Positions 35,587 through 56,543 of a stretch of DNA of 64,000 nt are shown here, piece after piece (positions within the stretch are counted from its first letter, which is position 1; every line of letters starts with the position of its first letter). Position numbers and translations under genes: made by a program. Under the pieces are notes generated by a model. That model worked only from the letters and a program-made list of their open reading frames with translations, was not told the DNA's origin and did no database searches. The stretch covers positions 1-64,000 of the forward strand of contig JAALKD010000013.1 of the NCBI GenBank assembly GCA_011088215.1. The letters run 5' to 3'. The stretch comes from Sphingomonadales bacterium (lineage in GTDB: Bacteria; Pseudomonadota; Alphaproteobacteria; Sphingomonadales; Kordiimonadaceae).

Positions 35587-36939
35587 TTAAAAAGTCAGTG
35601 AAAATGCGGCCCCGCCGCCTTCCCTTTCCGACAGGCTAACCGCGCCGCCGTGTGAAATCATAACCTGCCGAGTGAGCGCCAATCCAACCCCGCTACCTGC
35701 ACGCTTGGTGGTGAAAAAAGGTACAAATATCTGTTTGGCAATATCGACCGGAATACCGGGACCGTTGTCAGCAATTTCTATTGCCACTCTGCCGCGTTTA
35801 TTCAGCCGGGCAAACAGCCATACGGTTGCATCTTTCTTGCCTGCCAGTGCCTGCCCGGCATTTTTTAGCATGTTGATCAATATTTGCTCCAACATATCGC
35901 TGTCAGCAGAGACATCCAGTTCTGCCGGTTCAACTGACGTCAGCAATTTAATACCTTCAGTTTGCCATTCTTCACGGAATAGCCGTTCCATAGTGTCGAA
36001 TAAGTCCTGCAGGCGAACCAAAGTGCGCTCAGGCGGTGGCAGACGGGTTAAGCTGCGATAGCTGGAGACAAACTGATTGAGCCGGTCGGAACGGCGGGCG
36101 ACGGTGTTTACCGCGTCTTTAACGTCGCCCAGTTCTGCAACAACTTCGGGGTTGTTTTCAACCTTGCTTGCGGCATCATCTACCAGGTCAACCGCCGTTT
36201 TTGCCAGCGACGCCACCGGCGTGATCGAATTCATAATCTCATGGGTCAAAACACGCACAAGGTCTTGCCACGCTTGCAGTTGGGCCAGGTCCAGCTCGGA
36301 CTGGATATTTTGCAGGCTAAATAGTTTTTCCGGCGTACTGTCGATGATGATTTTTGATGCGGCCAGCATCATTTGCTGTTCCACACCGTCGGCATCAAAG
36401 GCAACCAATCGCCTTTCCCCGGGCTCAATAGCGGCAACCTCTTTCTGGAACTCTTCGCCGAACTGTGCCAGTTGGTTCAGGTGCGTTGCCGGCGTTGTGC
36501 CAAACAGCCGCCGCGCCGCGTTGTTCCATATATTCAGCGAGCCATTGGAGTGCAGCGACAGAAGTGGTACTGGCACATGCTCGATTAGGGCTTTCAGGTG
36601 GCGCAGTTCCTTTTCTTTGGTTGCCCGGACTTCCTGAAAACGGGTAAGAATATCGGTGAAGGTGTCGCCCAGTTCGCCGAAACCTGCACCCAAATCCCGC
36701 ATGCGAAATCGTTGGCTGAAATCGGCGTAGCGCGCCGCGTCGAGAAACCGCGAAATTTCTGCATTTGTGCGTTTAACAAACTGAAATACTTCAGCCGTCA
36801 AAAATACCAGTACGCAAAAGGTCAGAAATGTCGCTGCGTGGTAGCCGGGCACGGAAAACAGATAACTCAGCCCCATCAGGGTGAGCATGATAAGCACCAG
36901 CCGTCCGGCCAGCAGAAAGCTGAAACGCCTAAAGCCCAT
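35587..36939 (-). CDS. Sensor histidine kinase (NtrY-like)
   Basis: Two TM segments; HEIMNSITPVASL H-box; EQILINMLKNAGQAL; DNGPGIP; GSGVGLALTRQ. Confidence 0.93.
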   Translation of the reverse strand: MGFRRFSFLLAGRLVLIMLTLMGLSYLFSVPGYHAATFLTFCVLVFLTAEVFQFVKRTNAEISRFLDAARYADFSQRFRMRDLGAGFGELGDTFTDILTRFQEVRATKEKELRHLKALIEHVPVPLLSLHSNGSLNIWNNAARRLFGTTPATHLNQLAQFGEEFQKEVAAIEPGERRLVAFDADGVEQQMMLAASKIIIDSTPEKLFSLQNIQSELDLAQLQAWQDLVRVLTHEIMNSITPVASLAKTAVDLVDDAASKVENNPEVVAELGDVKDAVNTVARRSDRLNQFVSSYRSLTRLPPPERTLVRLQDLFDTMERLFREEWQTEGIKLLTSVEPAELDVSADSDMLEQILINMLKNAGQALAGKKDATVWLFARLNKRGRVAIEIADNGPGIPVDIAKQIFVPFFTTKRAGSGVGLALTRQVMISHGGAVSLSEREGGGAAFSLTF

Positions 36940-38353
36940 GTTTTTCCATCCTGCGATACAGTGCCGCCCGGGTAATTCCCAGCTCTTTTGCAGCGTGGCT
37001 AATATTGTAGCGGTGTTTCTTCAGTGCACCGGCGATAGCACCTTTCTCAATGCGCTCCAAATTGAGGTCATCGCTCTCAGTTGGTTTCGCAGTAGCGTGG
37101 TTGTTATCGCCTGACAGCGATCGTTCGGTCGGTGGCGGGCTCACGCCGGATGGGCCCATCTGGAAATCCTCGGCCGCGAAGGCGTCGTTGTCTGAAAGAA
37201 TAACCGCCCGCTCAATGGCGTGGCGCAGTGCGCGAACATTGCCGGGCCAGTTATAGTGGGTCATCGCTGACAGCGCGTCCGGCGCAAATTCTTTCTCGGG
37301 CTTGTCATATTTTCGGCAGTATAGCTCGCTATAGTGGCGGGCAATCTCTGGAATATCCTGCTGTCGGTCCCGAAGCGGGGGCACATGTACTTCCACAGTA
37401 TTGAGGCGGAACAACAAGTCCTGGCGAAAAATAGCTTCATCTTTGAGTTTGCCGAGGGCAACGTTTGTTGCGGCAATGACTCGAATGTCAATATCAATAG
37501 GCGTTCCTGAGCCCACTGGTACCACCTGCCGTGTTTCCAGAACAGTCAACAGTTTTGCCTGTAGATGCAGTGGCAGATTGCCAATCTCGTCCAAGAATAA
37601 GGTGCCGCCATCTGCTGCTTGCAACCGGCCGATCCGGTCCTCCCGCGCGTCGGTAAAAGCGCCTTTTTTGTGGCCGAACAGTTCGGACTCGAACAGTGAT
37701 TCCGGCACTGCGCCTAAGTCGACCGCCATGAATATATTTTCTGCCCGTTTGGACAGACGGTGCAGCTCACGGGCGACCAGTTCCTTGCCAGTGCCGTTTT
37801 CTCCCAAAATAAGTACGTTGGCATCGGTGGGAGCTGTGCGCGCGATAATTGACAATACTTCTGCAATTGCCGGGCTATTACCAAGTATGGGCTGTTTGGG
37901 TTCACTGGCCACAGCAGCAAGCGCCCGGTTGGTCTTTTTTAACTTGTCGGCTTCACTGCGGGTTCGCCGCAGTTTCACACTGGTGGACAAAGTGGCCACC
38001 AGCTTCTCGTTTTGCCATGGCTTGGCGACAAAATCGGTTGCGCCCTGTTTCATTGCTTCGACCGCAACATTCACGCCGCCGTGCGCGGTGATCATGATAA
38101 CAATTGACCGCGGATCGATCTTGAGAATTTCTCCTAACCAGTGAAATCCCTGTTCGCCCGAAGATTCGCCGGGCCCAAAGTTCATATCGAGCAGGATTGC
38201 GTCAAACACATGGGCTTTCATCAGCACCGGAATGTCTTCTGGATTGCTGCAGGTAATGACAGTGTCAAAATGGCGTTTGAGCAGCAGTTTAACTGCAACG
38301 AGAATATCCTCATCGTCGTCAACAATTAAAATAGAGCCAGTTTGTTGCAGCAT
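36929..38353 (-). CDS. Sigma54-dependent NtrC-family response regulator
   Basis: REC domain ILIVDDDEDI; AAA+ GENGTGKELVAR; GAFTDA loop; Fis-type HTH. Start ATG 38353 (MLQQTGSILIVDDDE) preferred. Confidence 0.95.
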   Translation of the reverse strand: MLQQTGSILIVDDDEDILVAVKLLLKRHFDTVITCSNPEDIPVLMKAHVFDAILLDMNFGPGESSGEQGFHWLGEILKIDPRSIVIMITAHGGVNVAVEAMKQGATDFVAKPWQNEKLVATLSTSVKLRRTRSEADKLKKTNRALAAVASEPKQPILGNSPAIAEVLSIIARTAPTDANVLILGENGTGKELVARELHRLSKRAENIFMAVDLGAVPESLFESELFGHKKGAFTDAREDRIGRLQAADGGTLFLDEIGNLPLHLQAKLLTVLETRQVVPVGSGTPIDIDIRVIAATNVALGKLKDEAIFRQDLLFRLNTVEVHVPPLRDRQQDIPEIARHYSELYCRKYDKPEKEFAPDALSAMTHYNWPGNVRALRHAIERAVILSDNDAFAAEDFQMGPSGVSPPPTERSLSGDNNHATAKPTESDDLNLERIEKGAIAGALKKHRYNISHAAKELGITRAALYRRMEKHGL

Positions 38354-38381: not shown

Positions 38382-38442
38382 TGTTCGGAACCGTACACAA
38401 AGTGTTCGAAATCGTACAGAGCTTTATGTTCAAAATCGAACA
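38382..38442. promoter_or_regulatory. Three 16-bp palindromic sites, candidate enhancer sites
   Basis: TGTTCGGAACCGTACA (38382-38397), TGTTCGAAATCGTACA (38403-38418), TGTTCAAAATCGAACA (38427-38442). Confidence 0.82.
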
Positions 38443-38446
38443 TTGG

Positions 38447-38465
38447 AGTATAAAGTCTTTATACT
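38447..38465. promoter_or_regulatory. Perfect 19-bp palindrome
   Basis: AGTATAAAG T CTTTATACT between enhancer sites and sigma54 promoter. Confidence 0.7.
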
Positions 38466-38480
38466 TCATATGCTTAATAA

Positions 38481-38496
38481 TTGGCATAGCCTTTGC
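38481..38496 (+). promoter_or_regulatory. Sigma54 -24/-12 promoter
   Basis: TTGGCATAGCCTTTGC: GG-N10-GC spacing, immediately upstream of the transporter operon. Confidence 0.82.
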
Positions 38497-38550
38497 TCCT
38501 GTGGGGGTAAGAACAGAAACCGCCTTAAGGTGGAAGAGAAAGAAAAAGCA

Positions 38551-39900
38551 GTGACGGAAAAAAAACAAACATCTGGAAATCCTATCCCTATGTACGGTGG
38601 CAAAACCGCGGGAACTGACAGGCCTGCATCTGGTGCTGGTATGGACCGTATAGTTGAAAAGAAGAAAAACCACTGGAAATCAGCGGGTATAATCGTGGTG
38701 GTTCTTGCTGTTGCCGGTGTCGCCTGGATGCTGATTAATGACGCCGCTGGTGGACGTACTTTCAGGGTTAATGAAAGTCGAATTGTCATATCAACAGTGA
38801 GCGAAGGCACCTTCGAGGATTTTATACCCGTACGTGGCCGTGTCACGCCGCTGAAAACGCTTTTTCTTGATGCAATAGAAGGCGGTCGGGTGGAGCGTAT
38901 CCTCGTTGAGGACGGGACAATGCTCAAAAAGGGCGACCTGATCGTTGAGCTGTCCAATAGTAATCTGCAAGTTAGTTTCACCGCCAACGAAACCCGCGTA
39001 ACCGAACAGCTGAACAATATGAGATCGCAGGAATTGCAGCTTGAACAAAACCGCTTGGGTCACAAGCGCAATTTGGTGGACTTCAATTATCAGATCAAAA
39101 CCTTGACCCGTAAGGTGGAGCGCGAGCGGGAGTTGGTGAAAACCAACGCTATTCCGATGCGTCAGCTCGAAGATAGCGAAGATGATCTGGAATATAATAT
39201 TAACCGCCGGGAATTGACTCTCGAAAGTCAGGCGACGGATGCGCGCCTGCAGGAAAGCCAACTGGTTTTCCTGCGCGCTGCGGCAGTTCGGCTTGAAGAA
39301 AGCCTCGTTGTTGCCCGCAGAAATCTTGATAACCTGAATGTACGTGCGCCGGTGGACGGCAAATTGTCTGGTTTTAATGTTGAGATCGGCGAGAATATTC
39401 CGCGCGGTAATAGGCTTGGCCAAATAGATGATCCGGATAATTACAAGCTGACAGCCAATATCGACGAGTTTTATTTGGGCCGCGTAGATATTGGTCAGGA
39501 GGCAGTGTTTGAACGAGATGGCACAAGTTATCGTATGACCATTTCAAAAATTTACCCACAGGTGACCAACGGCCAGTTTGAAGTTGATTTTGTTTTCGCT
39601 GACACGCAGCCCGCTGATATACGCCGCGGCCAGACATTGCAAACCAAACTGACGCTGGGTGACGCGACAAAGGCGGCGCTTATCCCCAACGGCGCTTTTT
39701 ACCAGGATACCGGCGGCAATTGGGTGTTTGTTGTAACCGCAGACGGGTCGCAAGCAGTGAAACGAACCGTGCGATTGGGACGGCGGAATTCACGCTTTAT
39801 CGAGGTGCTGGAAGGGTTGGAAATTGATGAGCGTGTTGTCACGTCGCCCTACAGCAGCTTTCTGGAAATGGATAGGTTGCGTCTGTCCGGAGATGACTAA
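38551..39900 (+). CDS. Periplasmic adaptor / membrane fusion protein (HlyD/MacA-like)
   Basis: Single N-terminal TM, coiled coil, RAPVDGKLSGFNVEIGENIPRGNRLGQI. GTG 38551 (or 38530) preferred because the sigma54 promoter lies inside the longer ORF. Confidence 0.88.
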   Translation: MTEKKQTSGNPIPMYGGKTAGTDRPASGAGMDRIVEKKKNHWKSAGIIVVVLAVAGVAWMLINDAAGGRTFRVNESRIVISTVSEGTFEDFIPVRGRVTPLKTLFLDAIEGGRVERILVEDGTMLKKGDLIVELSNSNLQVSFTANETRVTEQLNNMRSQELQLEQNRLGHKRNLVDFNYQIKTLTRKVERERELVKTNAIPMRQLEDSEDDLEYNINRRELTLESQATDARLQESQLVFLRAAAVRLEESLVVARRNLDNLNVRAPVDGKLSGFNVEIGENIPRGNRLGQIDDPDNYKLTANIDEFYLGRVDIGQEAVFERDGTSYRMTISKIYPQVTNGQFEVDFVFADTQPADIRRGQTLQTKLTLGDATKAALIPNGAFYQDTGGNWVFVVTADGSQAVKRTVRLGRRNSRFIEVLEGLEIDERVVTSPYSSFLEMDRLRLSGDD

Positions 39901-39982: not shown

Positions 39983-40693
39983 ATGAAAAAAGAAAGAAAG
40001 GAACACGGCATGCTTAAATTGCACAATCTCTCCAAATATTATCGGACTGATGAGGTTGAAACCGTGGCGCTGGATAATGTGAATATCGAAATTGAAAGCG
40101 GTGAGTTTGTCGCGATCATGGGTCCTTCCGGTTGTGGGAAATCAACGTTGTTGAACATCGTTGGCATGCTCGATAGCCCCTCGGAAGGCGATTATATTTT
40201 CATGGGTGAAAATGTTGCGGGTTACCCGGAATCGAAACTGTCCAATATTCGCAAGCAAAATATTGGCTTCATTTTTCAGTCGTTCAATTTGATCGATGAA
40301 CTGACGGTTGAGGAAAATATCGAACTGGCCCTTCTCTATCACAATATTCCCGCGAGCGAACGGCGCGAACGGGTCGCCAAGGTAATGGACAAAGTCGGCA
40401 TTGCCCACCGTGCCAAACATATGCCCAGCCAGCTTTCAGGTGGCCAGCAGCAGCGTGTTGCTGTTGCGCGCGCGGTTGTCGGTGATCAGGCAATGATCCT
40501 GGCTGATGAGCCAACCGGTAATCTTGACAGTGCCCACGGTCAGGAAGTGATGGAAATGCTTCAGTCGTTGAATGCGGAAGGCACCACCATTGTGATGGTA
40601 ACTCACAGCCCGGCCCACGCTGATTATGCTCGCCGCACCATCAACCTGTTTGATGGTCATGTTGTAACAGAGGACCTGAGGGCTGCAGTTTAA
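39983..40693 (+). CDS. ABC transporter ATP-binding protein (MacB/LolD type)
   Basis: [45 protein letters not shown]. Confidence 0.97.
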
Positions 40694-40777: not shown

Positions 40778-43210
40778 ATGCTGAAAAACTACATAACAAT
40801 TGCGCTTAGAAATATTCTGAAAAACCGCTTGTATGCCTTCATCAATATTATTGGTCTGGCCATCGGCCTGACCGTATATGTATTTGGGTCTGTGCTTGTT
40901 GATTACGAGAAAAACCATGACCAGTATTTTGCCAATACGGACCGTATTTATACGATAAATTCGATTTTTTCACCGGCGGCTAATATAGGCATAAAAAGAG
41001 CCGATACTACATACGCTGCTTTTGGGGAATTTTTGAAAACCGGTATGCCCCAGTTAGAGGCGACGGCGCGGATAAAGCGCCAGGAATTTCTGGTTACCAT
41101 TGGTGATGATGATTATTACCAGGAAATTCGTTTTACTGATCCTGATTTCACCAAGATATTTGATCTGGACTATATTGTCGGCGACGCGTCAGCCCTTGAT
41201 GATCCTTCCTCTGTTATTTTTACTCGGTCAGCTGCTGAAAAATTTTTCGGCGACGCCAATGCCGTCAACGACGCCATCGGGCGGACAATTTTATTGGACC
41301 ATCAGAACAGCTTAACGGTTGCCGCGGTGGTGGAAGACTTGCCAGCGAACACTCATTTCAATTCTTCCGTTTTGGGTGAGGATGATATGACGGTTTTGGC
41401 GCCTATGTCTGCCTTGAAACAACTTATCGATTATGACCCGGCCTTAGACTGGGGAAATATCTCTCTCGGTAATCGTATGTATCTGCTGGCGCCAGCCAAT
41501 CATGTTGTTGCCGAGTTGGAGACAAGCCTAGCAGTCACCTATGAACAACATTTTCCTGAAGACCAAAAAGAATTTATAATTGAGGTCAAACTTGAACCAC
41601 TTACTCAAGCGAATACAGCTTTTTGGGATGGTATAGGTTTACCCGTAATCGATAGTATCTCGATCCTGGCAGTGCTCGTGCTAGTAGTAGCGTGTGTGAA
41701 CTATACAAATCTTGCGACGGCTCAAAACATGGGCCGCGCGCGCGAAGTAGGGCTTCGGCGCACCTTGGGTGCCGGCCGCAGGCAGCTTTTGATCCAGTTT
41801 TTGACTGAAAGTTTGATCGTTGCGCTGATTGCTTTGCTGATCGCCCTTGTTCTTCTTGAATGGATTATTCCCTTTTTCAATCAAAGCCTAGGTAAAGTGG
41901 TGGCACTTGATCATTTGGCCATACTTCCTTGGCTCGCCCTCACCACAGTTGCTGTTGGACTGATTTCAGGTGGTTACCCGGCCTATCTGATAACCAGAAC
42001 CACACCGATTGATAGCCTGAAGGACGGCAACAGTGGCGGCGCGCGTAAGTCACTTGTGCGGGCAATAATGATAGGGCTTCAATTTGTCATCGCTATCTTC
42101 ATGCTGGCAATGGTGATGGTGATGTATTTTCAGAACCAAAAAGTGAAGCAGACAATTGATTTGTTTCCGACGGACCAGATTTTGGTGCTGGAACGCTTGG
42201 ACGTAGACGAAATTGCCCAGCAAACAGAAACGCTGCGCAACGAGTTAATACGCCTGCCGAACGTTGAGAATGTTTCCTTTATGTCTCAAGTGCCTTTTGA
42301 GCAAAACAACAGCTCATTTGAAGCAAATATTAATCCAGGTGATGAGGCTGCAGGTTTTTCCATGAATAGGCTTGCTATTGACTATGAATTTTTGTCGACC
42401 CTGGATGTGGCCTTGATCGCGGGGCGTAATGTGTCGCGAGAAATCGCCTTGGATGGCCCTGTCGAGGGAGCGGAGCAAACCAATGTTCTGGTCAATGAAT
42501 TGGCAGCGGAAAAACTGGGGTTTGCATCGCCCGAAACGGCTATTGGCCAGTCATTCTACCAAATAGGTGATGACAGCTCTCGTCAACTCACCATTGTTGG
42601 TGTGGTTGAAAATCAGAACATTCTTGGGTTTCATAATAATGTGAAACCTTTCACTTTTAATGTTCAAAGCGGCCAGCGTGTCGGCACGGTTCGTTTTACA
42701 CCGATAGGTGTACAGCAAACGCTGCAAGACATAGAAGCGGTTTGGGACCGGGTAATCCCCAATTACCCCATGCAGAGTAAGTTTCTCGACGAAACTTTTG
42801 AAGATGTCTACACCATATACCGGTCCATTAATATCGCTTTAGCCGCGTTTGCCGTGCTTGCTTTGTCGCTTGCGTTGATTGGGCTTTTTGGGCTTGCAGC
42901 CTTCATGGCCGAGCAGCGCACAAAAGAGATTGGTATTCGTAAAATAATGGGTGCCAGTGTGCCGCAGGTGGTGCGTCTGCTGATATGGCAATTTTCCAAA
43001 CCGGTATTATGGGCGCTTTTGGTTGCCCTGCCGTTGGCCTATTTCAGTATGAATTTATACCTGAATTTCTTCTCAGACAGAATTGGTTTGCCAGCAGGCA
43101 TTATCATGATTGCCGGCATGATCGGCGTGATCGCCGCATGGGGCATTGTTGCCATGCATGCCGCTGCTGTCGCACGTGCCAATCCCATTAATGCACTTCG
43201 ATATGAATGA
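40778..43210 (+). CDS. FtsX/MacB-like ABC permease, paralog 1
   Basis: MLKNYITIALRNILKNRLYAFINIIGLAIGL...RTKEIGIRKIMGAS...NPINALRYE. Confidence 0.95.
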   Translation: MLKNYITIALRNILKNRLYAFINIIGLAIGLTVYVFGSVLVDYEKNHDQYFANTDRIYTINSIFSPAANIGIKRADTTYAAFGEFLKTGMPQLEATARIKRQEFLVTIGDDDYYQEIRFTDPDFTKIFDLDYIVGDASALDDPSSVIFTRSAAEKFFGDANAVNDAIGRTILLDHQNSLTVAAVVEDLPANTHFNSSVLGEDDMTVLAPMSALKQLIDYDPALDWGNISLGNRMYLLAPANHVVAELETSLAVTYEQHFPEDQKEFIIEVKLEPLTQANTAFWDGIGLPVIDSISILAVLVLVVACVNYTNLATAQNMGRAREVGLRRTLGAGRRQLLIQFLTESLIVALIALLIALVLLEWIIPFFNQSLGKVVALDHLAILPWLALTTVAVGLISGGYPAYLITRTTPIDSLKDGNSGGARKSLVRAIMIGLQFVIAIFMLAMVMVMYFQNQKVKQTIDLFPTDQILVLERLDVDEIAQQTETLRNELIRLPNVENVSFMSQVPFEQNNSSFEANINPGDEAAGFSMNRLAIDYEFLSTLDVALIAGRNVSREIALDGPVEGAEQTNVLVNELAAEKLGFASPETAIGQSFYQIGDDSSRQLTIVGVVENQNILGFHNNVKPFTFNVQSGQRVGTVRFTPIGVQQTLQDIEAVWDRVIPNYPMQSKFLDETFEDVYTIYRSINIALAAFAVLALSLALIGLFGLAAFMAEQRTKEIGIRKIMGASVPQVVRLLIWQFSKPVLWALLVALPLAYFSMNLYLNFFSDRIGLPAGIIMIAGMIGVIAAWGIVAMHAAAVARANPINALRYE

Positions 43211-43242
43211 TTTTTTAATCAACATGAAAAGAGTTATTGCCG

Positions 43243-45723
43243 ATGTTTGAAAATTACGTGAAGACAGCCTTCCGCAATTTGATGCGGCAAAAACTTTTTT
43301 CGACCATCAACATAGTTGGCTTGGCGATTGGTTTGGCCGCTTCAATATTGATCCTGCTCTTTGTTCGTGACGAGCTGAGTTACGATAATTTCTGGGCAAA
43401 AAAAGACCAAGTATACCGCATGCAAGGCACGATTCACCTCCCGGGGCGTGCGCCGGGCGCTGGCTCGCCCAGCGCTATGGCACCTGCGGCACCAGCGCTG
43501 CTAGCCGATTTCGATGACGTGGCCAGTATCACGCGCATTACCTATGTGAACGGAGCAGGCGTATAGGTAGGGAATAATCAGTTTCTCGAAAACCTGATGA
43601 TCGCAGACCCGGCATTGTTGACCATGTTTGATTTTCAGGTGCTTGAGGGAAGTCTGGATAACGCTTTAAGTCGCCCGACAAACGTCATTCTGTCCCGCTC
43701 TTTGGCGCAGAAATATTTTGGAAACACACCCGCTGTTGGGCAAACGGTTTTCTTAACGCAAGGCGGTGATGAAACATTTAATGTGGTTGCGGTTGTAGAA
43801 GATATTCCGGCAACCAGTCATTTGGATTTTGATCTGGCTGTCCCCATGGCGCCACGGTATTTCGTGCCAACAGCACCGGGCCGGGCAAATGGCCTTGAAA
43901 ATTGGGGATCACTCAGCTTTCTGACATATATTGAGTTTAAGCAAGGCGTAAACGTTGCTGCTTTTGCGCAACAAATGCCGGCATTTCTAGACCGACATGT
44001 ACCGGACACTATTCGGGAAATTGTCAAGATTGCGCCAAGCGAACTTTTTCGTATGCAATTCATTCCCTTGCCCGACATTCATCTGGAGAGCCCAGCAAGC
44101 GGAACCACGCGCCCCAGCGGTGACATTGAATCTATCTATGCTTTTTTGGGAATCGCCATTTTGATTATGGCAATTGCAATTATCAATTTTATCAACCTTT
44201 CAACGGCATACGCTTCCAGACGCGGCAAGGAAGTTGCCGTGCGTAAAGTTGTAGGCGCAAAGAAAAGCGATCTTATGGTGCAATTTCTCGGCGAAGCCGG
44301 GTTGATGGTGGTTCTGGCTTTGCTGCTTGGGCTTGTGCTCGTTGAAGTAACTCTACCATGGTATGGCACTTTAACTGCTAAGATACTGCAAATTGATTTT
44401 GCAAATGATCCATTGTTGTTGATGGGTCTAGCGGGCCTTGCTGTAGTCGTGGGACTTGGTGCAGGCTTGTACCCTGCGTTTGTATTGTCGCATTTCAAAC
44501 CCGTTGTCATGTTGAAATCCAGCAGTGGGTCTGTGGAGGGCAACAAAGGGGGTCTTCGCTGGTTTTTGGTTGTTGTGCAATTCGCTATTTCCATTGGTCT
44601 GATTGCAGCGACCGCCATTCTTTATGCGCAAACACGCTATGCGCAAACTAAAGAATTAGGGTTTGACAAAGAGAATGTTCTTGTCGTTATGCCTAACGGC
44701 GACGCTCGCTTTTCGCAGACATCAGAACAGTTGATGGAACGATTAAAGCGATACCCAGATGTTATTGATGTAACAAAATCATCCGCTGTGCCCGGCGGCG
44801 GCGGTCAGGCAAACACAACGGTCAGGCTTTCTGACGCTGAAACTTCGGAACCGATCCCGCTCAGAACAGTGAATGTAGATTTCAATTTCTTTGAAACACT
44901 AAAGATGCCTATTGTCGCCGGTCGATCTTTCTCGGAAGAATATAGCGGCGACATCACCGTTGATTTTGGTGAAAATGACAGGCGCGAGCAATCCAATGCC
45001 ATTATCAATGTGCGGGCGGTTCGTATGCTTGGTTTTGCATCTGCGGAAGATGCTATCGGCAAGACAATTCTTCACAGCCGAAACCCTGTCTCAGCCCTAA
45101 CAATTGTTGGTGTTGTTGCCGACGCTCATTTCCAGTCACTGCGAACCGAGATAGACCCGGACCTATACCGAATAGACCGGCGCAACCTGATATTTCCTTC
45201 ACTGCGTGTGAAAGCAGGAAGAGATACGCAAGTATTGGCCGCGATTAAGAATGACTGGAAAGAGTTGTTTCCAAACGCCCCGCTGCAAACCCTTTACATG
45301 GATGAAGGACTGGACCAGCTTTATGCGCAGGATAAACTACGCGGCATGATGCTCGGTACATTTGCTTCGCTTGCCGTGCTTGTATCGTGCCTTGGACTTT
45401 TGGGACTGTCTTCCTTCACAATTGAGCAACGCACCAAAGAAATTGGTTTGCGTAAAGTCATGGGCGCAAGCATGCCCAATATTATGCGCCTTTTGCTGTG
45501 GCAGTTCACCAAACCAGTGTTGATTGCCAATGTAATCGCATGGCCGATTGTTTGGTATTTCATGGGCGAATGGTTGTCAGGCTTCGCTTACCGCATAGAC
45601 ATGGATCTATTGCCTTTTGCTTTGGCAGGGGTGTTTGCGCTTGTAATCGCGTGGTTCACGGTTGGCCTTCATGTTCTGAAAACAGCGAAATCCAGTCCGA
45701 TTAATGCACTTCGATATGAATAA
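43243..45723 (+). pseudogene. FtsX/MacB-like ABC permease, paralog 2, interrupted by TAG
   Basis: ...YVNGAGV*VGNNQFLENLMIADP... continuous frame; TAG at 43564-43566. Confidence 0.87.
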
Positions 45724-46620: not shown

Positions 46621-46653
46621 AAACAATAAAAAAACCGACACCGGGAGTAGTTG

Positions 46654-49140
46654 ATGTTTCAGAATTATGTCCAGGTAGCGATCAGAAACCTGATCAATAA
46701 TAAACTATACGGCGCCATCAATATTATTGGACTGGCGGTTGGGCTTGCCGCTTGCATTATGATTGCTCTCTTTGTCCAGTATGAGTTTTCATACGATAAA
46801 CAATGGGCCAAATCGGACAGCCTTTACCGTTTGCACACAACTTTCAACCTGCCTGGTCGCGAACCAATGAAGACAACACGCTCACCTGGTCCCGCTAAAG
46901 CCGCGTTTGACAGGTATTTCGTCAACGAAGTAGTGGCGTCTGCGCGTATTCGCAGCCTTAATCCGGTCATTCGGTACAAGGGCCAGGTTGCCAGTGAGCA
47001 GATTCACTGGACGGACCCCGAAACGGCTGAATTGTTCGATCTTAAAATTGTAGCAGGTAATTTTGCTGAGGCGCTCGGCGACAACGCAAGTCTTGCGGTC
47101 GACCAGTCTTTTGCTACCCGGTATTTCGGCGCGGAAAACCCAATTGGCAAGGTTGTAACGCTTAATCAGTATGAGATTGAACGTGATTATAAAATCACAG
47201 CTGTTTTTGAAGACCTCCCGGACAATACCATTCTGGATATTCAGGCGTTTGTGCGGATCGATGAAGCTGATTTCGAAAACCAGAGCTGGGAGTTTGCCCA
47301 GTGGTATAGCACCAATGCCTATTTGTTCTATGAGCTGAAAGAGGGCGTAAATGTTGCGGATATTGATGCCCGCATGCCCAATTTTCTAGATAATTCGCTT
47401 GAGATTGATCCAGACGCTGGCGCTTTTTCCAAAGCGTCTGATTTCATGGAATTATACTCTCAGGCTCTCACCGACATCCAGTTGAACCCGCAGGGCCGCA
47501 ATGGGTCTGAGATGAAGCCAACCGGCAGCATGACCAATGTGATCATCTTTGTCGCGATTGCAGGGCTTATCCTGATGATTGCCTGTATCAATTTCATGAA
47601 TTTGGCGACAGCGAAATCAACCCAGCGCGCCCGCGAAGTGGCACTCAGGAAAGTGCTTGGTGCGCACCGCGGCCAATTGATTGCTCAGTTTATGGGCGAA
47701 TCTATCCTGTTGGCACTGATTGGCCTGTGCCTAGGCATCGTTCTTGTGGAATTGATGATCACCCCGTTTGGTGATTTTATCGGCAAAGCGCTGACGATTG
47801 ATTATACCGATGGTCTGACCATGGGTATTTTGGTGGGACTGGTCGCTTTTGTGGGCATGATCGGCGGTGTATATCCAGCGCTTGTACTTTCAGGTTTTTT
47901 ACCAGCGCATGTCTTGAAGGCGAACAAGTCAGCCGAAACGAGCGGTTCTGCGGCACTTCGTAATATTTTGGTGATTGCCCAATTCTCAATTTCGATTGGC
48001 TTGATTATCGCTACAAGTGCCGTATACGGTCAGCGGCTTTATGCAACATCTAAGGACCCTGGTTTTGAAAAAGAAAATATTCTCGTCGTGCATAATCTGG
48101 GTCGCACCGACATGCAGGGCAAAGGTGAAATTCTCCGTCAACGCTTGGCGCAAATCCCGGGTGTTACAAAAACAAGCCTGGCGGCTGATACACCCGCAAA
48201 TGGCAATGAAAGCAATAGCAATGTTACCAAAGAAGGCGATGACCCAAGCCTGACCATGCTCATTGGCCGGCAGTCAATCGATTACGACTTCTTTGACCTT
48301 TACGATGTTGATGTCATTGCTGGCCGTGTCTACAGCCGCGACCGTGAAACAGACGGCATACCATCAGCTGAGGGCGTGCCAGAGGAGCAACTGTTAAGCG
48401 GTACACTCGTGATCAACGAAGCTGCCGTACGCCGCCTTGGTTACGCGTCTGCTGCTGAAGCTGTCGGCCAGCGCTTGATGATGGGAGTGTCGCAAGGCAG
48501 AGAAGCAGCGATGGAAATCATCGGTGTGATTCGCGATATGCAGTTCCAGTCTTTGCGCCGGCCTATGCGCGCTGAAATGTACCAGCTACGGCCTGCCGAT
48601 GTGCGTAACTTGTCGGTAAAATTTGAGGGGGATGCGGCACCAATACTGGCACAGATTGAAGCGATCTGGTCTGAAATGGCACCGACGGTGCCATATCGTC
48701 ATACCTTTATTGATGACCGTTTGAAGGAAGAATTCGCGCAGGAAGAGCAGCAGTCTGTATTGCTGGCTGTGTTCGCAAGCCTTGCAATATTGATTGCCTG
48801 TCTTGGCCTGTACGGTCTGGCCTCTTTCACAGCGGAGCGCCGCACCAAAGAAATTGGCATTCGAAAAGTGATGGGCGCGTCCGTGATTGATATCGTGCGC
48901 CTGTTGATCTGGCAATTCTCCAAACCTGTTTTGATAGCAAATATAATTGCTTGGCCGGTCGTGGTTTACGGCCTGATGACTTGGCTGGAGACATTTCCTT
49001 ACCGGATAGAAATATGGTGGCTGGGTATATTCTGTGTGGCTTCGGGCATCATTGCCTTGTCGATTGCCTGGGCCACCGTCGGCGGCAACGCCGCCAAAGT
49101 TGCACGAACAAACCCGATAAAAGCACTCAGGTATGAATAA
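46654..49140 (+). CDS. FtsX/MacB-like ABC permease, paralog 4
   Basis: MFQNYVQVAIRNLINNKLYGAINIIGLAVGL...TNPIKALRYE. Confidence 0.95.
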   Translation: MFQNYVQVAIRNLINNKLYGAINIIGLAVGLAACIMIALFVQYEFSYDKQWAKSDSLYRLHTTFNLPGREPMKTTRSPGPAKAAFDRYFVNEVVASARIRSLNPVIRYKGQVASEQIHWTDPETAELFDLKIVAGNFAEALGDNASLAVDQSFATRYFGAENPIGKVVTLNQYEIERDYKITAVFEDLPDNTILDIQAFVRIDEADFENQSWEFAQWYSTNAYLFYELKEGVNVADIDARMPNFLDNSLEIDPDAGAFSKASDFMELYSQALTDIQLNPQGRNGSEMKPTGSMTNVIIFVAIAGLILMIACINFMNLATAKSTQRAREVALRKVLGAHRGQLIAQFMGESILLALIGLCLGIVLVELMITPFGDFIGKALTIDYTDGLTMGILVGLVAFVGMIGGVYPALVLSGFLPAHVLKANKSAETSGSAALRNILVIAQFSISIGLIIATSAVYGQRLYATSKDPGFEKENILVVHNLGRTDMQGKGEILRQRLAQIPGVTKTSLAADTPANGNESNSNVTKEGDDPSLTMLIGRQSIDYDFFDLYDVDVIAGRVYSRDRETDGIPSAEGVPEEQLLSGTLVINEAAVRRLGYASAAEAVGQRLMMGVSQGREAAMEIIGVIRDMQFQSLRRPMRAEMYQLRPADVRNLSVKFEGDAAPILAQIEAIWSEMAPTVPYRHTFIDDRLKEEFAQEEQQSVLLAVFASLAILIACLGLYGLASFTAERRTKEIGIRKVMGASVIDIVRLLIWQFSKPVLIANIIAWPVVVYGLMTWLETFPYRIEIWWLGIFCVASGIIALSIAWATVGGNAAKVARTNPIKALRYE

Positions 49141-49167
49141 GAAAAATTGTGACCGCAGGAGCTCGTG

Positions 49168-51660
49168 ATGTTTCAAAATTACTTTCAGGCGATGTTTCGG
49201 AATATTATGGCCAACAAGGTATATGGCTTCATTAATATTGTTGGCCTTGCCATTGGGTTGACAGCTTGCATTTTGATTATGCTTTTTGTCCGCGACGAGC
49301 TTTCTTTTGACCGCTTTTGGGCAAAGTCTGACGGTATTTACCGCCTGCATACCACCTTCAACGTGCCGGGGCGTCAACCCTTTGTTACGGCCAGTGCACA
49401 AGGTCCCACGAAAGAAGCTCTGAAAGGCTATTTCCCTGAGGAAATAGCGCACACCACTCGTTTTGCTCAGATGCAGCCTGTGGTTAAATATCAGGACAAG
49501 GTTTTTTATGAGCGAGTCCATTGGACCGACCCTGACACAGTTAAAGTGTTTGACTTTGATGTTGTTGAAGGTGACCTGGCTGCAGCCCTCAGCGACAACA
49601 GCAGCATCGCGCTAAATCAGACTTTCGCACAAAAATATTTCGGCGATGAAGTGGCGGTTGGCAAGGTTTTGACCATGACCACCTTCGGCGTGGTGCGGGA
49701 CTATCAGGTTGCTGCGGTGTTCCGTGACCTGCCCCACAACACTGTACTTTCCTTTCAAGCGCTGACTATGATTGACGAGCAAGACTTTACTCATCAGCCG
49801 GCCATATTTTCCGAATGGTTTTCGTTAAACAATTGGGTCTATTTCACCTTGAAGCCCGGCGTGGACATTTCAAGAATTCAGGCTCAACTCGGCAGCTTTG
49901 CTGACGCTGTAATTATTGCACCCGGCGCCTTTGACGACGACACCAAACCGTCGGACTTTGTTACTTATAGCGCGATGCCGTTAACCGAGCTTCAACTCAA
50001 CAGCCCGGGTGGTCGTGAAATGAAGCCGGTAGGTAACGCCGGGATCGTGGCGACATTCACCGCCATTGCCGGGCTTGTCTTGTTGATTGCCTGCATCAAT
50101 TTTACCAATCTGGCCACAGCCAGATCGACTCAGCGCGCCCGCGAGGTTGCGCTCAGGAAAGTACTCGGCGCAAAACGCAAGCAATTGATCCTGCAGTTTA
50201 TCAGCGAGTCGCTTTTGCTTGCGACAGTTGGGCTGTTGTTGGCCATCGTTTTTGTTGAATTGCTGTTGCCCTTTTACGAGCAATTTCTGGATCGCAACTT
50301 AACCTTTAATTATACGGGCACATTTGGCCTGACCATGTTTGCTGGGCTGATAGGGCTTGTCGGGTTGATCGCAGGTTTTTACCCTGCGCTTGTGTTGTCC
50401 GGTTTTCGACCTGCGCGGGTATTGAAAGCCAATCGGTCAACTGAAACAAAAGGCTCGTCCCGGTTGCGTAGCGGACTGGTTATCCTTCAGTTTTCTATTT
50501 CCATAGCTCTTATAATTGCCACTGGTGTTGTCTTTGGCCAGATGGTCTATGCCAACTCAAAAGATCCAGGGTTTAATAAAGAAAACCTGTTGATAGTGCG
50601 CAATGTGTCGCGTGAAGGCATTGTAGGCAAGCAGCAAACTTTGAAGGATGAAATTCTACGACTTCCCGGCGTTGTATCAGCGACCTATGTCGCCGATGCA
50701 CCCGCCAGCGGCAATGAAAGTAATTCATCTGTTCGTATCCCCAGTAACCCCGAAGCGGGTGATATTTTAATCGGCCGCCAGTTGGTCGATGAAGATTTTT
50801 TCCCGAGCTACCAAATTCCCATTGTTGCCGGCCGAAACTACAACCGTGATTTTGCCCAGGACGGCATGCCAGATTTTTCAAATGCTGAGCCTGGCCAAAC
50901 GCTTAACGGTACTTTGATCGTCAATCAGGCAGCGCTTAAAAGTCTTGGCTTTGGTGCCGCGGAAGAAGCGGTTGGGCAGATTGTTCAGGTTCAAACCGGT
51001 AGCGCCGGTTCAGATGCCATTTTTGCCAACCTGGAAATTATCGGCGTGTCGGCGAATACGCATTTTAAATCGCTTCGGCAGCTGGTACGGCCTGAAATGT
51101 ATTATTTTGTCAAAGATGGTTTCAGGAATTTAACGGTTCGTTATTCCGGTGACCCTACCGCTCTTTTGGCACAAATCGGGACCACGTGGCGCACCCTTGC
51201 AGCAGATGTTCCTTTCAGTCACTCGTTCGTCGACGAAGCCATGGCACAGCAATATCTGCAGGAACAAAATCTGGCGACCATGTTGGGTACTTTTGCTTCG
51301 CTTGCGGTGTTGGTTGCCTGTATGGGCCTATACGGGCTTGCATCTTTTACCGCTGAGCGTCGCACGCGAGAAATTGGTATTCGCAAAGTTATGGGCGCGC
51401 GAGTGATGGACATTGTCCGCCTATTGGTCTGGCAATTTTCGAAACCGGTTTTGGTAGCCAACCTCATCGCCTGGCCAGTGGCCGCATGGGGCATGATGAT
51501 GTGGCTGGAAAGTTTCCCTTACCGGCTGGATAGCTGGGTGTTGGCACCCTTATGCATGATCGCTGGGGCAATCGCGCTTGCCATTGCATGGGCAACTGTT
51601 GGCGGTAACGCCGCGCGTGTGGCCCGAGCCAACCCTATCAACGCCCTTCGTTACGAATAA
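49168..51660 (+). CDS. FtsX/MacB-like ABC permease, paralog 5
   Basis: MFQNYFQAMFRNIMANKVYGFINIVGLAIGL...ANPINALRYE. Confidence 0.95.
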   Translation: MFQNYFQAMFRNIMANKVYGFINIVGLAIGLTACILIMLFVRDELSFDRFWAKSDGIYRLHTTFNVPGRQPFVTASAQGPTKEALKGYFPEEIAHTTRFAQMQPVVKYQDKVFYERVHWTDPDTVKVFDFDVVEGDLAAALSDNSSIALNQTFAQKYFGDEVAVGKVLTMTTFGVVRDYQVAAVFRDLPHNTVLSFQALTMIDEQDFTHQPAIFSEWFSLNNWVYFTLKPGVDISRIQAQLGSFADAVIIAPGAFDDDTKPSDFVTYSAMPLTELQLNSPGGREMKPVGNAGIVATFTAIAGLVLLIACINFTNLATARSTQRAREVALRKVLGAKRKQLILQFISESLLLATVGLLLAIVFVELLLPFYEQFLDRNLTFNYTGTFGLTMFAGLIGLVGLIAGFYPALVLSGFRPARVLKANRSTETKGSSRLRSGLVILQFSISIALIIATGVVFGQMVYANSKDPGFNKENLLIVRNVSREGIVGKQQTLKDEILRLPGVVSATYVADAPASGNESNSSVRIPSNPEAGDILIGRQLVDEDFFPSYQIPIVAGRNYNRDFAQDGMPDFSNAEPGQTLNGTLIVNQAALKSLGFGAAEEAVGQIVQVQTGSAGSDAIFANLEIIGVSANTHFKSLRQLVRPEMYYFVKDGFRNLTVRYSGDPTALLAQIGTTWRTLAADVPFSHSFVDEAMAQQYLQEQNLATMLGTFASLAVLVACMGLYGLASFTAERRTREIGIRKVMGARVMDIVRLLVWQFSKPVLVANLIAWPVAAWGMMMWLESFPYRLDSWVLAPLCMIAGAIALAIAWATVGGNAARVARANPINALRYE

Positions 51661-51670
51661 GGAAACAGCC

Positions 51671-54100
51671 GTGTTTGCAAATTATTTGAAAACCGCGCTG
51701 CGTAACATTATGCGGCAAAAGTTGTTTTCCTTTATCAATATTGTCGGGTTGGCCATCGGGCTTGCCGCTTTCATTCTCATTGTGCTTTTTGTCCGTGATG
51801 AAATGTCCTGGGATCAGCACTGGGACCGCGCTGACGACATTTACCGGTTAGAAACAACATTGCAGTATCCGAGAGGATCAGATCGTTTCAGCCCATCTGC
51901 AGCGGCACCGCTCAAGGAAATTCTCCTTGATACAATTCAGGAAGTTGAAGCTGTAACACGCTTTGTCGATGTGAATGTAACAGTACGCCACGGTGCTGAT
52001 GTTAATGCCCAAATTATGCTTTTCGTTGACAATAATTTTATTGAGTTTTTTGACTTCCCGTTTATGGAAGGCAGTAGGGAAACCGCTTTTGCGACCATCA
52101 ATAGTATTGTTATCAGCCAATCAACGGCGCAGCGTTATTTCGGTGAGAATACGGCACTGGGGCGCATTATTTCGGCAAGATTGGGCGGCGAATTCCGTGA
52201 CTTCACTGTTGGTGGCGTGATCGAGAATCCACGCAGTGATACGCATTTGCGCCATGATTTTCTGGTGCCGATGAACCGAGAGTATTTTGCAAATGCTCGC
52301 TGGTTTACGGAAGACTGGCGGTTTTTGGTTCACGACACCTATATTCGCTTTGCCCCCGAAACAAATATAAGTGCAATGAGAGCAGCACTACCTGCTGTTG
52401 TCTCACAGCATAAGCCAACCATATTCAGCAACGGACAAGAAGACAGGCGCAACGTGATGCTACATCTGGTGCCTATTCAGGATACCCATCTTCATTCGCA
52501 TATTGCAGCTGCGGATCCGGATGTGTTGTTTGGGTTTTTAGCCGTCGCATTTCTTATTTTGATGATTGCAGTTGCTAATTTTCTCAATCTGTCAATGGCG
52601 CGCACAGCATACCGGGCAAGGGAGGTTGCATTACGCAAAGTTGTTGGTGCTCGACGTGCGCAAATTATCCAGCAGTTTTTAGGTGAGTCCGTTATTCTTG
52701 TATTTGTATCAATGTTGATCGCATTGGTGCTAGTTGAAGTGAGTTTGCCTTACTATAATGAATTCCTTTCAGCCTTTGTGACTCTTGACTTTATTAATCA
52801 AACCAGTGTTTTGATGGGTTTATTACTGCTGTGTATAAGTATTGGTTTGGCAGCTGGAAGCTTTCAAGCATTTTATTTTGCAGTCCTGAAACCGCGCGAT
52901 GTTCTGTATAGCAATACAGCGGCAGATAATGGCACCAGTATGCTTCGAACAGGCTTGGTCGTTGCCCAGTTCGCGATTTCTATCGCTTTGATGACATTTG
53001 CTTTCTTTGTAACACAGCAAACCAAGTATGCCCGCACATTGGATATTGGATTTAATGCCGAAGAGGTCATCATTGTGGGCGGGACCAATAATGACCGATC
53101 CGAGATATTCAAAACCAGATTACTTGAAAGCCCGCATATTACCGCCGTCGGACGTTCTTCGGATGTACCAACTGAGGGCAGTGAAGATCGTGTTTCAATC
53201 ATACGAGCATTGGATGGTGAAGCGTTAACCATGGATGGCTTAACGATTGGGCCAGACTTCTTCAATGCCTATGAAATACCATTGCTTGCGGGAAGGTACT
53301 TAACACAAAACGAGGCAGACGCAGCACGCTTGCGTGAGGATGACGGTGATTATAAACCTGCAATCAATATTGTTGTTAACGCCAGTGGTGCCGAGTTACT
53401 AGGATACTCCGTACCAGACGCAGCTATCAATCAAACAATAACAACCGATTTATATGCAAATTGGCGTGTGGATGCCACAATTGTGGGTGTCGTTGACGAT
53501 TTCCACTTCGATAGTGCGCGTGCTGTTATTCGCCCGGGCCTTTATTATGTATTTGAACCGCGTCAATCTGTGATGAGCGTTCGTGCCGAGACTGGAGCGC
53601 GGGCAGAAGCCATTGAGGAGATTGAAGAAATATGGCGGGAGATATATCCGGAGAATTTCCTCTATTATCGCACCATGCTGGAAATGGTTGAGCAGCAATA
53701 CCAGAACGACGAACAATTGGCTGTAATGGTTTCTGCCTTCACCTTACTGGCAGTAGTCATTTCTTGTCTTGGTTTGTACGGCCTTGCGTCTTTCACCGTA
53801 GAGCGCCGCACCAGAGAAATCGGATTGCGGAAAATTTTAGGTGCGTCCGTGAAGGATGTTATTGGCTTGCTGCTGTGGCAATTTGCAAAGCCGATATTGG
53901 TCGCCAACCTGATTGCATGGCCGGTCGCATTTTATTTCATCAGCGATTGGCTAAACAGCTTTGCCTATAGGATTGATCTGGACCCAGCACCCTTTGTTTT
54001 AACTGGCGGTTTGGCATTGATCATTGGCTGGTTGACGGTGGCAGGCCATGCATTTTTGGTGGCACGGGCAAATCCGATCAATGCGCTTCGATACGAATGA
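51671..54100 (+). CDS. FtsX/MacB-like ABC permease, paralog 6
   Basis: GTG start VFANYLKTALRNIMRQKLFSFINIVGLAIGL...ANPINALRYE. Confidence 0.93.
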   Translation: MFANYLKTALRNIMRQKLFSFINIVGLAIGLAAFILIVLFVRDEMSWDQHWDRADDIYRLETTLQYPRGSDRFSPSAAAPLKEILLDTIQEVEAVTRFVDVNVTVRHGADVNAQIMLFVDNNFIEFFDFPFMEGSRETAFATINSIVISQSTAQRYFGENTALGRIISARLGGEFRDFTVGGVIENPRSDTHLRHDFLVPMNREYFANARWFTEDWRFLVHDTYIRFAPETNISAMRAALPAVVSQHKPTIFSNGQEDRRNVMLHLVPIQDTHLHSHIAAADPDVLFGFLAVAFLILMIAVANFLNLSMARTAYRAREVALRKVVGARRAQIIQQFLGESVILVFVSMLIALVLVEVSLPYYNEFLSAFVTLDFINQTSVLMGLLLLCISIGLAAGSFQAFYFAVLKPRDVLYSNTAADNGTSMLRTGLVVAQFAISIALMTFAFFVTQQTKYARTLDIGFNAEEVIIVGGTNNDRSEIFKTRLLESPHITAVGRSSDVPTEGSEDRVSIIRALDGEALTMDGLTIGPDFFNAYEIPLLAGRYLTQNEADAARLREDDGDYKPAINIVVNASGAELLGYSVPDAAINQTITTDLYANWRVDATIVGVVDDFHFDSARAVIRPGLYYVFEPRQSVMSVRAETGARAEAIEEIEEIWREIYPENFLYYRTMLEMVEQQYQNDEQLAVMVSAFTLLAVVISCLGLYGLASFTVERRTREIGLRKILGASVKDVIGLLLWQFAKPILVANLIAWPVAFYFISDWLNSFAYRIDLDPAPFVLTGGLALIIGWLTVAGHAFLVARANPINALRYE

Positions 54101-54122
54101 TGACAGCTTTAGGAGAGACCGC

Positions 54123-56543
54123 TTGTTCCAGACTTACATAAGTATCGCACTTAGAAACCTGATAAAAAACAGGTTCTATAATGCCGTCAATATTGGCGGC
54201 CTAGCAGTGGGTCTGGCTGCGTGCATTATGATTCTGTTGTTTGTCGATCACGAACTTTCATACGATCAATGGATTCCGGAGCACAACCGAACTGTTCGAG
54301 CCGAGACTATTACCCGGTTTGAAGGGGCGCCAGAGGGTGATTCCGAAAGTATCCAGCCAGTCGTTGGCCCGTTAATCGCGGAACAATTAAGCGACATCGA
54401 ACTAACTGTTCGCCTGAACGGAAATACCATTGCGCTGTCGACCGGTCTTGCCGCCTTTGAGCAGAGAGTCACCTTAACAGACCCTGATATTTTTGAGATG
54501 TTTGGTATCAAGCTTATTGAAGGTAGCGCCGATACCGCTCTTGATGACCCAGAGAGCATTGTGCTTAGTCGGAAAGATGCGGTCAGGATTTTTGGCCCGG
54601 GTTCGGTGGTTGGCAAAACTGTGAAAGTGGATGGCCAGCATACAATGAAAGTTACCGGTGTCATGCCCGACTGGCCGGTATTGTCAGACCTCACAATAGA
54701 GGCTCTTGTGCCTTTTTCGTCGCCAATTATCGATGACCAGCCATGGCTGCGGGAAAATTGGGGATCGTTTTCCGGTGTTACCTATATGCGTCTGGCCAAA
54801 GGTGTTGACCAAATAAATTTTACCGAACAATTCAATGAAATAGCCCAAAGAATAGCGCCTGACTGGGCCTACAAATCCAAAATTGAGCGCGGTCTTCCAC
54901 CAACATTCACGTATCATTTCACACCGGTTGTCGACGCTCATTTGAAATCCGATAGCGAACTTGGCTCTCGCGGTAGTATAGAGGCATTGTGGTCGGCCGC
55001 CATTGTCGCAGTGCTGATTTTGGCGATTGCAGTTATGAATGTTACCAACCGTGGTACCATGCTGGCGTTAAAGCGGGTCCGCGAAGTTACCATTCGTAAG
55101 GCGCTCGGTGCTAAAGCCAAACATCTGGTTGCTCAAATTCTAATAGAAGCGATTGTACTTTCCCTGATCGCAATGCTGGCAGGTATTGTGATGGTGGAGC
55201 TGTTGCTGCCGATATTTGGTACAATGATGGATCGCCCGCTTTCGAGCGCACCACTATATAAAATTACTGTTGCTGGGCCATTGCTGATCTTCGCCGTTGT
55301 CATCGGTTCGATTAGTGGTCTCTATCCAGCCTTGGTTGCAGCACGTTTCCGGCCAATTGACCATCTGAACGGAGTGTCACCGACGGTGGGGATTCGCTTT
55401 AGAAACTTCCTGATGATTGCACAGTTCGCAGCCACTATCGGGCTTCTGGTTACCTGTTTTGTTGTTTTTCAACAGGCTAATTATGCCCAAAGTCGCAATC
55501 CGGGGTTTAATAGTGCGCAATTGGTACAAATTAGCGGCATAAGCCGCCCGGCGGTATTGGACCAAGAACAGTCCTTCAGAGAGCGTCTAGCCCGCATTCC
55601 TGGAGTTGAGGCGGTAGCCGCAAGCCACGTGGCGCCAGGCCATGACTATAATAATTTCAATTCAGGTTCCGTGGAGGGCGGCCCAACCGTAAACATACGC
55701 CGAATTTCCGTCTCAGAAGATTTTTTTGAAACCATGAAAATTCAGGCAATTGCCGGCAGAGTGTTTTCTTCTGACAGAGTCGGTGACCGCGAGGTTAGAG
55801 ATGACAACGGCAGTATTGCACCGATCATTCTCAATCACACGGCGGTCAGGCAACTTGGGCTGGAAAACCCCGAAAGCGCCATTGGTCGGGTTGTTCAGTT
55901 GAGTGCTGGCAATCAACGAACTATTGTCGGCGTGACTAATGATTTGTTTTTGGGATCGGTCAGAAATGATGTGGCGCCCAGCTATTTCTGGATCGATCCA
56001 CGGGATTTCCGTCATATCATTATGCGGGTTTCTCCGCTTAATATGGCGGCCACCCTCGCAGAAATTGATCAGGCCTGGCGCCAGCAGTTCCCCGACATAC
56101 CGGTTCAGCGCCAGTTTTTGGACGAAGCGTTTGCTTCATATTATGATACCGAACGCCGCCGCGGCTGGCTGTTGTTTGGCAGTGCCATTGTAATGATTGT
56201 AATTGCAACTGTGGGGCTGTTCGCTCTGTCTGCATTGACAACCGAACGCCGTGCCCGCGAGATTGTTATTCGTAAGGTGCTGGGTGCGCGCACCTCAAAT
56301 ATTGTCAATTTGCTATTGTGGCAGTTTTCCACCCCAATCCTTGTGGCAAACATCATAGCCTGGCCAATTGCCTGGTATGTTTTGCACAGTTGGCTTGAAG
56401 CCTTCGTCGATCGGGTTGCCTTGTCCCCATTACCATTCCTGGGTGCAGGGTTGCTGGTTTTGGGGATTGCAGGGGTCACAATAATTGGTCAGTCAATCGT
56501 TTTGGCGCTGTCCAACCCCGCACGAATTTTACGCTACGAATAA
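54123..56543 (+). CDS. FtsX/MacB-like ABC permease, paralog 7
   Basis: TTG start LFQTYISIALRNLIKNRFYNAVNIGGLAVGL...SNPARILRYE. Confidence 0.92.
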   Translation: MFQTYISIALRNLIKNRFYNAVNIGGLAVGLAACIMILLFVDHELSYDQWIPEHNRTVRAETITRFEGAPEGDSESIQPVVGPLIAEQLSDIELTVRLNGNTIALSTGLAAFEQRVTLTDPDIFEMFGIKLIEGSADTALDDPESIVLSRKDAVRIFGPGSVVGKTVKVDGQHTMKVTGVMPDWPVLSDLTIEALVPFSSPIIDDQPWLRENWGSFSGVTYMRLAKGVDQINFTEQFNEIAQRIAPDWAYKSKIERGLPPTFTYHFTPVVDAHLKSDSELGSRGSIEALWSAAIVAVLILAIAVMNVTNRGTMLALKRVREVTIRKALGAKAKHLVAQILIEAIVLSLIAMLAGIVMVELLLPIFGTMMDRPLSSAPLYKITVAGPLLIFAVVIGSISGLYPALVAARFRPIDHLNGVSPTVGIRFRNFLMIAQFAATIGLLVTCFVVFQQANYAQSRNPGFNSAQLVQISGISRPAVLDQEQSFRERLARIPGVEAVAASHVAPGHDYNNFNSGSVEGGPTVNIRRISVSEDFFETMKIQAIAGRVFSSDRVGDREVRDDNGSIAPIILNHTAVRQLGLENPESAIGRVVQLSAGNQRTIVGVTNDLFLGSVRNDVAPSYFWIDPRDFRHIIMRVSPLNMAATLAEIDQAWRQQFPDIPVQRQFLDEAFASYYDTERRRGWLLFGSAIVMIVIATVGLFALSALTTERRAREIVIRKVLGARTSNIVNLLLWQFSTPILVANIIAWPIAWYVLHSWLEAFVDRVALSPLPFLGAGLLVLGIAGVTIIGQSIVLALSNPARILRYE

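Follow-up and report, generated by a model that had tools for sequence, protein, structure and literature searches.

We analyzed a 64,000-nucleotide stretch of DNA (hereafter the window) in which a two-component system faces a large transporter operon. An NtrC-type response regulator of 474 aa (36929-38353, minus strand), the proposed activator, combines a receiver, a sigma-54 AAA+ domain with a GAFTDA loop and a Fis-type HTH. The gene of its partner sensor histidine kinase (35587-36939, minus strand; HATPase_c and a weak PAS match) overlaps the 3' end of the regulator gene. On the plus strand, the operon begins with an HlyD/RND-type periplasmic adaptor (membrane fusion protein, 38533-39900) and an ABC ATPase (MacB/LolD/DarD-like, 39983-40693). 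Seven tandem MacB_PCD/FtsX permeases follow, reaching about 59.1 kb: permease 1 (ADOP-like, 40778-43210), permease 2 (43237-45723) and five more at 46651-49140, 49165-51660, 51578-54100, 54048-56543 and 56613-59120. The frame of permease 2 is open apart from a TAG at 43564-43566, which may reflect a pseudogene, a sequencing error or readthrough. Since the window permeases score 262 and 296 bits with the ADOP model (TIGR03434), under its subfamily cut-off of 622 bits, we name them ADOP-like. The darobactin exporter models likewise score under their equivalog cut-offs (DarC 214 of 450 bits, DarD 274 of 375 and DarB 110 of 700).

All three domains of the regulator (PF00158, PF00072 and PF02954) score above cut-off. 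The protein falls under the equivalog cut-offs both for PrsR, the PEP-CTERM response regulator (TIGR02915; 363 versus 502.6 bits), and for NtrC, NR(I) (TIGR01818; 344 versus 558.6 bits). Its start codon is likely the one at 38353. A longer reading frame starting at 38443 was rejected because the added residues merely translate the palindromes described below and because orthologues align from near 38353. In the receiver, Asp56 (the phospho-Asp) and Lys111 are invariant wherever aligned. From Alpha- to Gammaproteobacteria the recognition-helix segment TRAALYRRMEK hardly varies, in keeping with the constancy of the predicted binding site. At the loop that contacts sigma-54, the window regulator and 23 others have GAFTDA, and 46 orthologues have GAFTGA. 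GAFTDA is among the variants listed as expected to keep activity (PMC4641369), and the window regulator carries a presumably functional variant of the GAFTGA signature of NtrC-family activators (bEBPs). The genome to which the window belongs also encodes rpoN (TIGR02395, 431 bits).

Between the regulator and the operon lie three palindromes that had been described as fitting TGTWCR-N4-YGWACA, and each of them does so without mismatch: the distal site 1, TGTTCGGAACCGTACA (38382-38397), the middle site 2, TGTTCGAAATCGTACA (38403-38418), and the promoter-proximal site 3, TGTTCAAAATCGAACA (38427-38442). The start-to-start spacings of 21 and 24 bp are exact. The preliminary description equated both with about two helical turns; this holds for 21 bp, whereas 24 bp corresponds to about 2.3 turns. 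The -24/-12 element of the transporter operon, TGGCATAGCCTTTGCT (38482-38497, plus strand), has its GG at 38483-84 and its GC at 38495-96. The palindromes span about 41-101 bp upstream of the -24 GG, in agreement with the 40-100 bp given previously, and the nearest of them ends 29 bp from the ATG of the regulator. The window contains no further exact match to the pattern, for which base frequencies predict about 0.06 occurrences per 64 kb. In the whole genome (4.0 Mb), which its named relatives put within or beside Kordiimonas (Alphaproteobacteria), there are 11 exact matches versus 2 for the reversed control pattern.

We then compared the intergenic region with 78 orthologous loci from Alpha- and Gammaproteobacteria for which upstream sequence was available. 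Conservation of the sites wherever the regulator and operon are conserved was a consequence of the enhancer reading put forward earlier, and it is what we found: allowing at most one mismatch, at least one site is present between regulator and operon in 76 of the 78 regions and at least two in 72. The spacing between sites is mostly exactly 21 bp, and sites 1 and 2 are kept at this distance in most loci. Site 3 is the least conserved, with a third site (at most one mismatch) in about 16 of the 78. In an alignment of the genus, the palindromes, a short CA...TT block and the -24/-12 box stand out as conserved islands in otherwise diverged DNA. The gene order is widely kept: the histidine kinase adjoins the regulator in 80 of 80 loci and the adaptor is divergent to it in 76; in most of the remaining four, a contig end truncates the locus. 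Regulator orthologues are likewise frequent in Gammaproteobacteria (Colwellia, Thalassotalea, Halieaceae and Woeseiaceae).

In many loci, across two classes, the two distal core sites are asymmetric (TGTTC...GTACA on the operon strand, as in the window at 38382-38418). Sites at dispersed permease genes are mostly symmetric (TGTTC...GAACA). The asymmetric form may hint at a second role for the two core sites.

A scan of 151 genomes of the order detected site pairs spaced 20-22 bp apart in 50 of them; the reversed control pattern gave no hit in any genome. In 61 genomes searched for both pairs and regulator, with orthology of the latter assigned by a gap in E-values, pairs accompany the regulator in 33 of the 37 genomes that encode it and occur in 0 of the 24 that do not (Fisher p = 3e-13; neither counts nor test take the kinship of the genomes into account). 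The other four regulator-bearing genomes have sites that are 24 bp apart or weaker. The palindromes are genuine conserved sites, and the protein that docks on them is almost certainly the neighboring sigma-54 activator.

Same-face placement and bending of the intervening DNA by IHF are established features of the sigma-54 enhancer mechanism. We found the distance between site and promoter to be quantized. Over 85 non-redundant promoters, the proximal member of the 21-bp pair lies about 68, 78-79, 88 or 100 bp from the TGG of the -24 element, with a peak period of 10.5 bp and a Rayleigh R of 0.77. In the window, site 2 starts 79 bp upstream of this TGG, which is the commonest phase class. IHF-like sequences, scored as at least 8 matches to the 9 fixed positions of WATCARNNNNTTR, occur in either orientation in 67 of 86 spacers, compared with about 10% per orientation in shuffled spacers. 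Their offsets are fixed at 18-19 bp (forward) and at 30-31 and 39-41 bp (reverse). The window match (8 of 9, reverse) has its far end 31 bp from the TGG. Same-face placement together with the IHF-like sites fits the established mechanism.

The position of the IHF-like site in the window is overlapped by a 17-bp palindrome, GTATAAAGtCTTTATAC (38448-38464). The IHF-like match at that offset recurs across the promoter set; the exact palindrome GTATAAAGtCTTTATAC does not. We considered this palindrome (GTATAAAG) as a separate operator and rejected it, its conservation being confined to the nearest relatives, although its position overlaps the IHF-like one.

A genome scan for the pattern had been suggested in the preliminary description. 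In ours, 10 of the 11 exact sites precede genes for ADOP-like permeases of the MacB/FtsX type, with sigma-54 boxes; one of these genes is a relic. The eleventh site lies inside a 579-aa reading frame. The permease loci are the window operon, C60, C42, C120 and two promoters at C103, and C89 holds a further permease behind a site pair with one mismatch per site. In the immediate neighborhood of these own-genome loci, the dispersed permeases are orphans that have no ATPase gene of their own. A -24/-12 promoter is present at the window operon and at nearly all dispersed targets. The same genome carries a membrane-anchored M61-like HEIGH peptidase gene behind an upstream activating sequence (UAS) pair and a sigma-54 box (G000:C39 = L273 758-2323, minus strand). 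The relic at C103 (G000:C103 = L043 4352-4680) retains only the N-terminal part of a permease, with UAS pair and sigma-54 promoter intact, and adjoins a full-length permease carrying the same UAS/sigma-54 cassette.

In ten other genomes of the order, a search for single sites placed 20 non-core site regions upstream of permeases. Inspection of 40 pair loci yielded 12 core operons, 25 dispersed permeases, 2 micropeptide genes and 1 other secreted protein, to which no family was assigned. In one relative (G056), the gene of a TolC-type outer-membrane protein lies behind a UAS pair and a sigma-54 box (L225, around 2000-2300), which would bring the outer-membrane partner into the regulon there; no site pair was found upstream of the TolC gene of the window's own genome. 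In six gammaproteobacterial genomes, 0 of 29 non-core exact sites precede a permease, which suggests that the dispersed regulon arose by expansion among Alphaproteobacteria. Within Kordiimonas and related genomes, the cassette of enhancer, IHF-like site and sigma-54 promoter appears to drive dispersed orphan permeases together with an M61-like peptidase, a TolC and an Arg-rich micropeptide, and the regulon looks like a means of feeding extra permeases to the ATPase/adaptor pair of the window operon. One sensor system thus appears to switch on dispersed export genes, probably for peptide defense, in marine bacteria.

The sequence features of a bEBP regulon are found together here: activator domains, -24/-12 promoters, phased tandem inverted-repeat UAS and rpoN. 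Site conservation, phasing, sigma-54 boxes, IHF-like sites, regulon membership and co-occurrence with the regulator are properties of the sequences themselves. The preliminary description had read the palindromes as enhancer sites bound cooperatively by the adjacent regulator. This reading is strongly supported by conservation in orthologues, by co-occurrence with the regulator, by the 10.5-bp quantized distance to sigma-54 promoters, dispersed ones included, and by the IHF-like sites, with binding itself a prediction. The dispersed regulon and the IHF-like site go beyond what that reading contained. Points against it include the GAFTDA rather than GAFTGA loop, the degenerate -12 boxes of Colwelliaceae and Alteromonadaceae, the four regulator-bearing genomes that have no pair spaced 20-22 bp, and the chance that another Fis-type activator reads the sites. 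Weighing these, we regard an enhancer array and a dispersed permease regulon under the adjacent regulator as very probably the best explanation of the whole.

Alternatively, the main effect of the regulator at these sites could be repression or autoregulation of its own promoter, with activation of the operon being secondary. The sites are located 29-90 bp upstream of its start codon and are similarly close to it in most orthologues. Moreover, each of the two sites on the regulator side retains an asymmetric GTACA half that points to the regulator and is mostly missing from the dispersed permease sites. However, the sites and sigma-54 boxes recur at dispersed targets, where there is no regulator gene, the helical phasing is relative to the sigma-54 box, and a search for a sigma-70-like promoter of the regulator gene detected none, so that we judge a mainly autoregulatory role improbable. 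It is less probable still that another Fis-type activator encoded elsewhere binds the sites and that the adjacent regulator is a bystander. Such candidates exist, with 13 matches related to the regulator in the same genome (G000), and the motif similarity of EBPs does not always track the similarity of their DNA-binding domains (PMC4641369). Against this stand the restriction of pairs to genomes with this regulator orthologue in the 61-genome test, the persistence of the core sites beside the regulator across two classes and the near-invariance of its recognition-helix residues. That the palindromes are chance occurrences or a spurious repeat with no regulatory role, as the window count at two mismatches (24, equal to the shuffled expectation of 21) might suggest, is ruled out for practical purposes by their conservation and by the excess of exact matches and pairs far above the reversed-pattern controls.

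Under the enhancer reading, the Fis-type HTH of the adjacent regulator would bind the palindromes as UAS. The kinase would sense a signal, probably envelope or antimicrobial-peptide stress, and the phosphorylated activator would assemble, presumably cooperatively, on the 21-bp-spaced pair. Bending of the spacer by IHF would allow the activator to meet the sigma-54 polymerase at the phased -24/-12 promoter and switch on the adaptor-ATPase-permease operon, and the regulator may in addition control its own gene. In Kordiimonas and related alphaproteobacteria, we infer that it also drives the dispersed orphan permeases and a few helper genes through copies of the cassette. The orphan permeases would presumably use the ATPase and adaptor of the window operon.

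The arrangement resembles QseF/GlrR at glmY, where three QseF sites and two IHF sites accompany a sigma-54 promoter (PMC8745638). Both systems pair a response-regulator bEBP with a sigma-54 promoter that has IHF or IHF-like sites and, upstream, three inverted repeats of the TGT...ACA type. Unlike the QseF/GlrR consensus TGTC-N10-GACA (PMC8745638), which the window sites do not match, the latter read TGTWC-N6-GWACA within TGTWCR-N4-YGWACA, and the target is an ABC exporter regulon rather than a small RNA. In Desulfovibrio, EBP regulons defined by comparative genomics likewise feature TGT and ACA half sites ahead of sigma-54 promoters, with the halves 9, 11 or 12 bp apart there and 10 here (PMC4641369); we found no mention of MacB, HlyD or efflux in the text of that paper. 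A 2025 survey presents sigma-54 enrichment at COG0577 permease genes as a new link, and in it ABC-type antimicrobial-peptide permeases of Gammaproteobacteria, Opitutia and Bacteroidia are predicted to be under sigma-54 control (PMC12316311). Its passages on these permeases give no activator, enhancer site or phasing, and this lineage is absent from them. The darobactin exporter DarBCD, MacAB and ADOP permeases share the composition of adaptor, ATPase and MacB/FtsX permease, but here seven tandem and several dispersed permeases surround one adaptor/ATPase operon. Our search of the open-licence literature found no paper on this regulator or site. The mechanism, a sigma-54 enhancer array, is ordinary; the regulator is undescribed and the dispersed permease regulon unusual.

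For duplicated orphan ABC permeases, until now tied to regulation only through a statistical sigma-54 enrichment, the analysis names a predicted activator, its binding site and a set of targets. It also suggests how permeases lacking an ATPase may be expressed in concert with the operon from which they would draw one. Paralogous promoters that fall into four helical phase classes amount to an experiment of nature on the geometry of sigma-54 enhancers. The predicted co-regulation of a peptidase, a TolC and a micropeptide offers leads to a physiology that can be tested. More speculatively, the two-component system might command a modular, expandable arsenal, in which one adaptor/ATPase operon is joined by scattered permeases with ready-made cassettes and by a co-induced Arg-rich micropeptide acting as exported product, inducer or assembly factor; we hold this broader picture to be possible and rather doubtful.

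Two further observations concern individual loci. In the Colwelliaceae and Alteromonadaceae orthologues, the -12 boxes read TTGG, TTGT or TTGA, not TTGC, with the UAS pair kept (for example TTGGAACGATTATTGGAT); loci with such a degenerate -12 upstream of the adaptor are L095-L114, L118, L122, L138-L141 and L151. The Arg-rich micropeptide is encoded by an open reading frame of 31-39 aa with a strong RBS behind a UAS pair and sigma-54 box in four Kordiimonas genomes (for example MAFLNEVIRPDTTEKKKPAAASQTGFCRRRTRRYK; L195 (G011) 2216-2335, L327, L332 and L348 (G005)). A search for it in the window's own genome found none. In several of the loci a terminator-like hairpin lies 3' of the micropeptide reading frame.
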